Shown: positions 15,775 through 15,837 of the stretch, in pieces
How the letters are laid out: every line of letters begins with the position of its first letter
How positions within the stretch are numbered: position 1 is the first letter of the stretch
NCBI RefSeq assembly: GCF_001570985.1
Contig: NZ_BCSS01000004.1
Coordinates: 1 to 64,000 of the forward strand
DNA from: Janibacter limosus NBRC 16128
GTDB taxonomy: Bacteria; Actinomycetota; Actinomycetes; Actinomycetales; Dermatophilaceae
Reading direction: 5' to 3'
Length of the DNA stretch: 64,000 nucleotides
Translations under genes and position numbers: made by a program
The notes under the pieces: model-generated
The model's input: the letters and a program-made list of their open reading frames with translations, nothing else
Database searches by the model: none
Told to the model about the DNA's origin: nothing

Positions 15775-15816
15775 ATGCGGACGGACCTCCTCCTTCTCTG
15801 CCGCGGCGAGGCCTGA
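15775..15816 (+). CDS. leuA leader peptide (13 aa, four consecutive Leu codons)
   Basis: The ORF reads MRTDLLLLCRGEA and stops at TGA 15814-15816. Four leucine codons in a row (CTC CTC CTT CTC), one of them the rare CTT, sit 69 nt before leuA. Its start is 7 nt past a -10 hexamer. This is the layout of a ribosome-mediated attenuator: stalling on Leu codons under leucine starvation would change folding of the RNA that begins right after them. Leucine leader peptides before leuA have been proposed in other Actinobacteria. Confidence 0.75.
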   Translation: MRTDLLLLCRGEA

Positions 15817-15837
15817 CACACGGCCACCTCGTCGCGG
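15801..15837 (+). promoter_or_regulatory. leuA attenuator hairpin
   Basis: CCGCGGCGAGG (15801-15811) pairs with CCTCGTCGCGG (15827-15837), 11 bp with one G-U, loop 15 nt. The left arm begins one codon after the leucine run, so a stalled ribosome would cover it. It may act as a terminator or as a structure hiding the leuA ribosome site; no U-tract is evident. Confidence 0.6.

Follow-up and report, generated by a model that had tools for sequence, protein, structure and literature searches.

The LEU element of leuA in Janibacter limosus NBRC 16128 is likely to be a leucine-responsive translational attenuator. The message would start at the ATG of a short leader reading frame and the ribosome would load at its 5' end; as the message probably begins at this codon, no Shine-Dalgarno (SD) sequence would be needed for loading. 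When leucine is sufficient, the ribosome would traverse the leader and depart, the Leu codon run, the P2 hairpin and the pseudoknot would fold, and pairing of the Leu run with the leuA SD would turn leuA off. When charged tRNA-Leu is short, the ribosome would wait on the Leu codons and cover the Leu run, leaving the SD free and allowing leuA to be translated. In this scheme we infer the start site, the translation of the leader, the stalling and the direction of control.

The leuA leader of Janibacter limosus

The window analysed is the whole stretch of 64,000 nucleotides from the source genome (G000, 3.38 Mb), and the features of the leuA leader given in this section lie on its plus strand. 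The leader ORF (15775..15816, MRTDLLLLCRGEA*) has 13 sense codons and a UGA stop, and reads from 15775 ATG CGG ACG GAC CTC CTC CTT CTC TGC CGC GGC GAG GCC TGA. The regulated gene directly downstream of the leader is leuA (15886..17622), coding for 2-isopropylmalate synthase and identified by NCBIfam TIGR00970 with 827.5 bits against a cut-off of 697.4. The Leu codon run CTC CTC CTT CTC (15787..15798) is at the same time the anti-SD strand: its core UCCUUC (15791-15796) pairs with GAAGGA (15874-15879) in the leuA SD region GACGAAGGA (15871..15879), with two flanking pairs on either side. The first-pass annotation of this DNA had given an incomplete anatomy, as the SD region which is the pairing partner of the Leu run lay outside the stretch that it covered. 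It had rightly counted 11 bp in the hairpin but placed its start one codon past the Leu run, while the actual offset is 2 nt. This P2 hairpin is built from the 5' strand CCGCGGCGAGG (15801..15811), lying within the leader ORF, and the 3' strand CCTCGTCGCGG (15827..15837); its 11 pairs include one G-U and close a loop of 15 nt. Within the loop, the putative pseudoknot strand CGGC (15821..15824) faces its partner GCCG (15848..15851), with which it would form only 4 bp here. Moreover, part of the P2 3' strand, UCGUC at 15829-15833, could pair alternatively with GACGA (15871-15875) upstream of leuA, a pairing that is no more than suggestive.

The -10 hexamer TATCGT (15762..15767) lies 7 nt upstream of the leader ATG, and the earlier description of a 13-codon ORF with CTC CTC CTT CTC, 7 nt past a -10 hexamer, is confirmed on the sequence. 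A promoter scan gave no sigma-70 site, so the -10 call rests on position and comparison. Judged from this spacing, the transcript probably starts at or beside 15775, i.e. it would be leaderless. Single-sequence folding of 126 nt was also unexceptional (z = -1.32, with 20 of 200 shuffles folding equally well), and since neither the fold nor the promoter scan stands out on a single sequence, the case is a comparative one. The Rfam covariance-model search of 15500-16100 at E<=5 assigned no family; the three matches at this threshold were all on the minus strand, to eukaryotic small-RNA families, and far below the gathering score. No terminator-like site was found within 15500-16000. This result, together with the complementarity of the Leu run to the leuA SD, makes translational attenuation likelier than classical termination. 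The ribosome-mediated attenuation suggested by the first-pass annotation is therefore retained as control by a leader ribosome, which is the best reading, but is moved from termination to the level of translation.

Conservation and RNA pairing across the class

All 16 Janibacter genomes keep the leader and all 11 P2 pairs, and in each of them 3 or 4 Leu codons are retained; loss of the Leu run among close relatives, which had been named in advance as evidence against the proposal, was looked for and not found. In 15 of the 16 genomes a TAnnnT hexamer stands 7-8 nt before the nearest in-frame start, and in the 16th it stands before an earlier GTG. Across the class, a covariance model trained on 58 leader sequences of leuA (R1) matches 236 of 246 genomes (E<=0.001). 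Of the class genomes, 197 were also searched for leuA, and 187 match at E<=1e-100; an R1 match, counted anywhere in the genome and not necessarily at leuA, is present in 186 of the 187 genomes with a leuA match and in 3 of the 10 without one. The source genome has one strong R1 copy, with weak matches elsewhere (best E 0.023). That a short ORF and a hairpin coincide by chance in GC-rich intergenic DNA, with which a single-sequence folding z of only -1.32 would agree, is refuted by this comparison (236 of 246 class genomes; 186 of 187 with a leuA match), and its probability is negligible.

A lenient core rule admitted 209 of 221 upstream sequences to the leader set; 198 of these were unique, and 192 were left after six removals by eye, namely L066 and L068 (Bifidobacterium), L076 and L081 (non-actinobacterial, chance hits), and L062 and L142 (unclear). 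The core rule was failed by L053, L055, L059, L061 (contig end), L065 and L067, and by the non-actinobacterial L069, L071, L074, L077, L078 and L079. In 135 of 188 leaders a TAnnnT ends 6-10 nt upstream of the leader start, and at any other distance up to 54 nt it is found in 0-11 leaders each; the start codon used for this count was the nearest in-frame ATG/GTG before the Leu run, chosen blind to the promoter. In some of the remaining leaders the -10 fits a start codon further upstream, or the hexamer departs from TAnnnT, as CATACT does. The spacing suggests that across the class these messages usually begin without a leader, as has also been seen by RNA-seq in S. lividans. Hence the leaderless message proposed in the first-pass annotation is kept as probable, but it should not be called an unusual variant.

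Two departures from the common leader were observed. In an Austwickia leader before leuA (L046), P2 and the CTT anchor are kept and the Leu run is lost, the leader reading ...LLAMTSWWRLRCRDGA. Three other leaders (L218, L223 and L236) are shifted by one base and meet a stop within the P2 5' strand (LLLSRP*, LLLSCP* and LLLMRP*, respectively) with P2 kept, so that the peptide sequence beyond the Leu run appears to be of no importance.

In the class alignment of 58 sequences, 98.4% of the 638 P2 cells pair. The two P2 strands co-vary: double-sided changes occur at 4 pairs, in 29 cells against 5.7 in shuffles, and none of 500 shuffles was as high. This alignment test has its own slide control, while P2 pairing counts over the 192 leaders come from a complementarity-maximising search. 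The gap between the end of the Leu run and P2 is 5 nt in 163 of the 192 leaders and 2 nt in 23; the shorter gap, as in the window, is due to a fourth Leu codon after CTT. The pseudoknot reaches at least 6 bp in 149 of the 192 sequences by best-match search, and loop against linker gives z -5.7.

The Leu run and the SD also co-vary between species. Among 120 non-redundant leaders, pairing of the Leu run with its own SD window beats pairing with swapped partners (mean -10.61 vs -9.74 kcal/mol, z -4.4, 0 of 5000 permutations), and in the control, with linker taken from outside that window, the Leu run scores z 0.2. A similar signal was obtained for the P2 3' strand against its own SD window (z -5.2, 0 of 5000 permutations; -4.0 within named loci and -3.1 within the class sample), with z -0.9 against linker outside that window. 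The other SD-window controls gave -1.6 for the P2 5' strand, -1.9 for the loop and -1.4 upstream. Shared ancestry probably explains these small negative controls, and it may inflate the main z values.

The co-variation of Leu run and SD is left unexplained by attenuation at the level of transcription without an intrinsic terminator, in which Rho, another factor or RNA cleavage would end the message once the leader ribosome leaves and a stalled leader ribosome would block this ending. Rho was proposed for cys leaders by Seliverstov 2005 (PMC1262725). For the leuA leader of M. tuberculosis, the published Northern blots display short leader RNAs of 85, 65 and 45 nt, which the account of that experiment reads as attenuation (PMC3526491); by analogy these bands suggest transcript ends or processing within the leader, and because of them transcript-level attenuation is kept as the main rival. 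On the other hand, the leuA leader in the window has no terminator-like site, and an obvious hairpin with T-run is present in the leuS leader L301 but not in the leuA leaders examined. Altogether we regard control of transcription as unlikely.

Translational attenuation was further explored by folding the RNA in ribosome states, with the bases under the ribosome blocked and pseudoknots not modelled. The predicted accessibility of the SD in the window is 0.11 in the free RNA and 0.62 when the first Leu codon occupies the A site; for a ribosome at CTT it is 0.55, and for one at the stop 0.27. Mean predicted values over 117 species are 0.21, 0.38, 0.34 and 0.27, respectively; the first-Leu state is more open than the free RNA in 93 of the 117 species (p 1e-12) and more open than the stop state in 82. 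The free RNA is predicted to be more open with swapped linkers (0.265 vs 0.21 with its own, p 0.002), which points to species-specific sequestration of the SD in the free state. Against the proposal, own linkers give no greater gain over the stop state than swapped ones do (0.115 vs 0.106, p 0.89), and the shortness of the putative pseudoknot in the window, 4 bp, also speaks against it.

The P2 3' strand may further serve as a second anti-SD in a three-strand switch, which would add to translational attenuation by the leader ribosome and is not exclusive of it. A ribosome at the stop would mask the 5' strand of P2 and so release the 3' strand for pairing with the SD region. The z of -5.2 for this strand (0 of 5000) beside -1.6 for the P2 5' strand control argues for such a switch, but the signal could be partly phylogenetic, and the predicted stop-state accessibility of the SD is not species-specific, being no lower with own than with swapped linkers (0.27 vs 0.285, p 0.44). 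We consider this addition possible, though doubtful.

Leader codons and second elements at other genes

The choice of Leu codons in the leaders differs from that of the gene. At 97 loci, the leaders use CTC 159, CTT 125, CTG 35, TTG 1 and CTA 1 times, whereas the leuA coding sequences of the same loci use CTG 2270, CTC 1689, TTG 127, CTT 120, CTA 67 and TTA 11 times. Thus CTT and CTG make up 38.9% and 10.9% of leader Leu codons, vs 2.8% and 53.0% in the leuA coding sequence, and CTT is the final codon in 149 of 190 Leu runs of the 192-leader set. This bias of CTT over CTG suggests that the leader bases are held for pairing with the purine-rich SD, for slow decoding, or for both.

Many class genomes have second matches to R1. 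Forty multi-match genomes were searched again and 14 + 40 regions were examined, the gene at each second site being assigned by motifs in the downstream reading frames. Eighteen second elements lie before leuB and six, with Leu codons, before leuC (L289, L290, L293, L295, L298 and L299); 11 of the batch of 40 regions lie before leuA or one of its paralogues. From the same batch, L296, L310 and L313 were set aside as apparently spurious or without an assignment. A further model, R2, was built from 19 leuB-type elements and added 10 leuB-linked elements in the family to the 18 found through the leuA-trained model, giving 28 in total (L245, L246, L247, L291, L292, L302-L305, L308, L309, L311, L317, L318, L320, L323, L325, L326, L332, L333, L335, L336, L339, L340, L344, L347, L350 and L356). 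Leaders such as MRFVLILRCRDGA, MRHIFVLRCRGGAS and MQWSVRILSCRGGAR are examples from the second elements, and at several of the leuB-linked sites leuB is followed by ilvE. As a side observation, L301 before leuS has a leaderless-looking leader, MQVELLLSPPR*, and then a hairpin with T-run, i.e. a classical attenuator.

The sensing codons scored were the anchor codon and the three before it. Among these four, Ile is present in 28 of 28 leuB-linked vs 2 of 192 leuA-linked elements (Fisher p 2e-33, for sequences that are not independent), and at least 3 of the 4 codons are Ile, Leu or Val in all 28 leuB-linked elements. At least three Leu codons are found in 186 of the 192 leuA-linked and in all 6 leuC-linked elements; L218, L223 and L236 count here as being without three Leu, their Leu run lying one base outside the fixed codon window. 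Six of the eight second-copy leuA leaders scored also have at least three Leu, the exceptions being L306 (TTVL) and L319 (GLFL). Second elements with Val/Leu-rich leaders (L315, L316 and L321) stand before genes whose products, of 124-143 aa, resemble the LeuA dimerisation domain; these proteins score 26.4, 27.9 and 15.2 bits against a Pfam cut-off of 24.9, two above and one below it.

In the proposal of 2005, the conserved structure is a binding site for a regulatory protein (ML1624 orthologues), with the leader peptide being incidental. Its compact, conserved fold and the mild effect of Leu-codon mutations, as related in that paper (PMC1262725), would suit a protein. But the sensing codons differ from one target gene to another on a constant fold, with Ile in 28 of 28 leuB-linked elements, and the distance from TAnnnT to the leader start is fixed; we find protein binding quite improbable. 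Codons that track the product of the pathway on an unchanged fold favour sensing by the ribosome, and the codon swap at leuB-linked sites is a natural experiment pointing in the same direction.

Further, we lean slightly towards regarding the LEU element as one of a codon-programmable family of leaderless translational attenuators, the sensed codons being rewritten for each target. The shared chassis would combine a P2 of 11 bp, an anchor codon located 5 nt ahead of it, and the pseudoknot. It would carry Leu codons before leuA and leuC, Val/Ile/Leu codons before leuB (often with ilvE) and Val/Leu codons before genes of LeuA-regulatory-domain-like proteins. If this is true, several steps of leucine and branched-chain synthesis are controlled throughout the class by one chassis whose codons can be exchanged; its transcripts begin with the start codon of the leader, and it leads to a family of small proteins that lack annotation.

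The latter would be encoded in the interval that separates the element from leuB. In 30 of 30 leaders (the 28 leuB-linked ones together with L328 and L341, whose examined stretches did not show leuB), P2 is followed at 43-280 nt by an ORF of 20-53 codons, a biased count as the search pattern was tuned on the first cases. These small ORFs are unannotated and conserved, mostly ending like ALQEAMDRRDNGGETGH or ALQESMDLRDQGHTD, and the examples compared with Pfam and NCBIfam gave no match. In some genomes leuB has, by eye, its own -10-like site after the small ORF, so the small ORF may be the direct target. The small protein is the nearest gene at leuB-linked sites, and hence the branched-chain switch may mainly control this new protein.

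In the source genome R2 matches the leuA site only, and the 1500 bases upstream of leuB (C32:30570-31583, L329) contain no LEU-type hairpin or small ORF. This leuB follows a dehydratase-like frame (ilvD by eye), and TAGGGT stands 7 nt before its ATG; from this position its message is probably leaderless too. Searches of open-licence PMC papers found no literature on leuB-linked leader peptides in Actinobacteria among the titles listed.

Comparison with known systems

In the classical attenuators of trp and ilvB, the leader peptide senses charged tRNA and a terminator hairpin with U-run follows. The Janibacter leader would share with these the sensing of charged tRNA through a leader peptide, but the terminator hairpin and U-run were not found in it. 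Leaderless polycysteine leaders have reportedly been described in mycobacteria by Canestrari in 2020; likened by title, they are likewise leaderless short ORFs with a run of the sensed codon, which is cysteine there, placed ahead of the biosynthetic operon, and they belong to other genes.

Leaders before leuA are described for C. glutamicum (PMC4046766) and C. diphtheriae (PMC5784534), and the ribosome profiling data reported for M. abscessus include a protected uORF before leuA (PMC4974804). In S. lividans, the account of the leader peptide LeuL1 (MRFGLLLLSCRGEGL) describes it as leaderless by RNA-seq, without a typical terminator and located before leuA (PMC8079986). It is a homologous leader of the same gene in another genus, where the start was mapped, whereas in Janibacter the start is deduced. 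The M. tuberculosis leader, as presented in the report of the Northern bands, is similar in having a 13-residue frame with Leu codons and then a stem-loop, and differs in having three Leu codons against four in Janibacter (PMC3526491).

The closest system is the LEU element of Seliverstov 2005, with a Leu-codon leader, a base stem between the Leu run and the leuA SD and a pseudoknot, found before leuA in Actinobacteria (PMC1262725). The element in the window shares with it the Leu-codon leader, the Leu run-SD base stem, the lack of a terminator, the gene and the phylum, and differs in that its putative pseudoknot is shortened to 4 bp. It belongs to this published element and is not new; leader translation, a binding protein and termination have been the candidate ways of leucine sensing since 2005. 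The 2005 paper favours a binding protein and does not discuss a leaderless start (PMC1262725). As cited there, changes of the Leu codons of S. coelicolor leuA had some effect, inconsistent with classical attenuation (Craster 1999, via PMC1262725). What our study appears to add to this known element is comparative evidence read from genomes, namely the co-variation of Leu run and SD, the CTT/CTC codon bias and the retuning of codons at leuB-linked sites.
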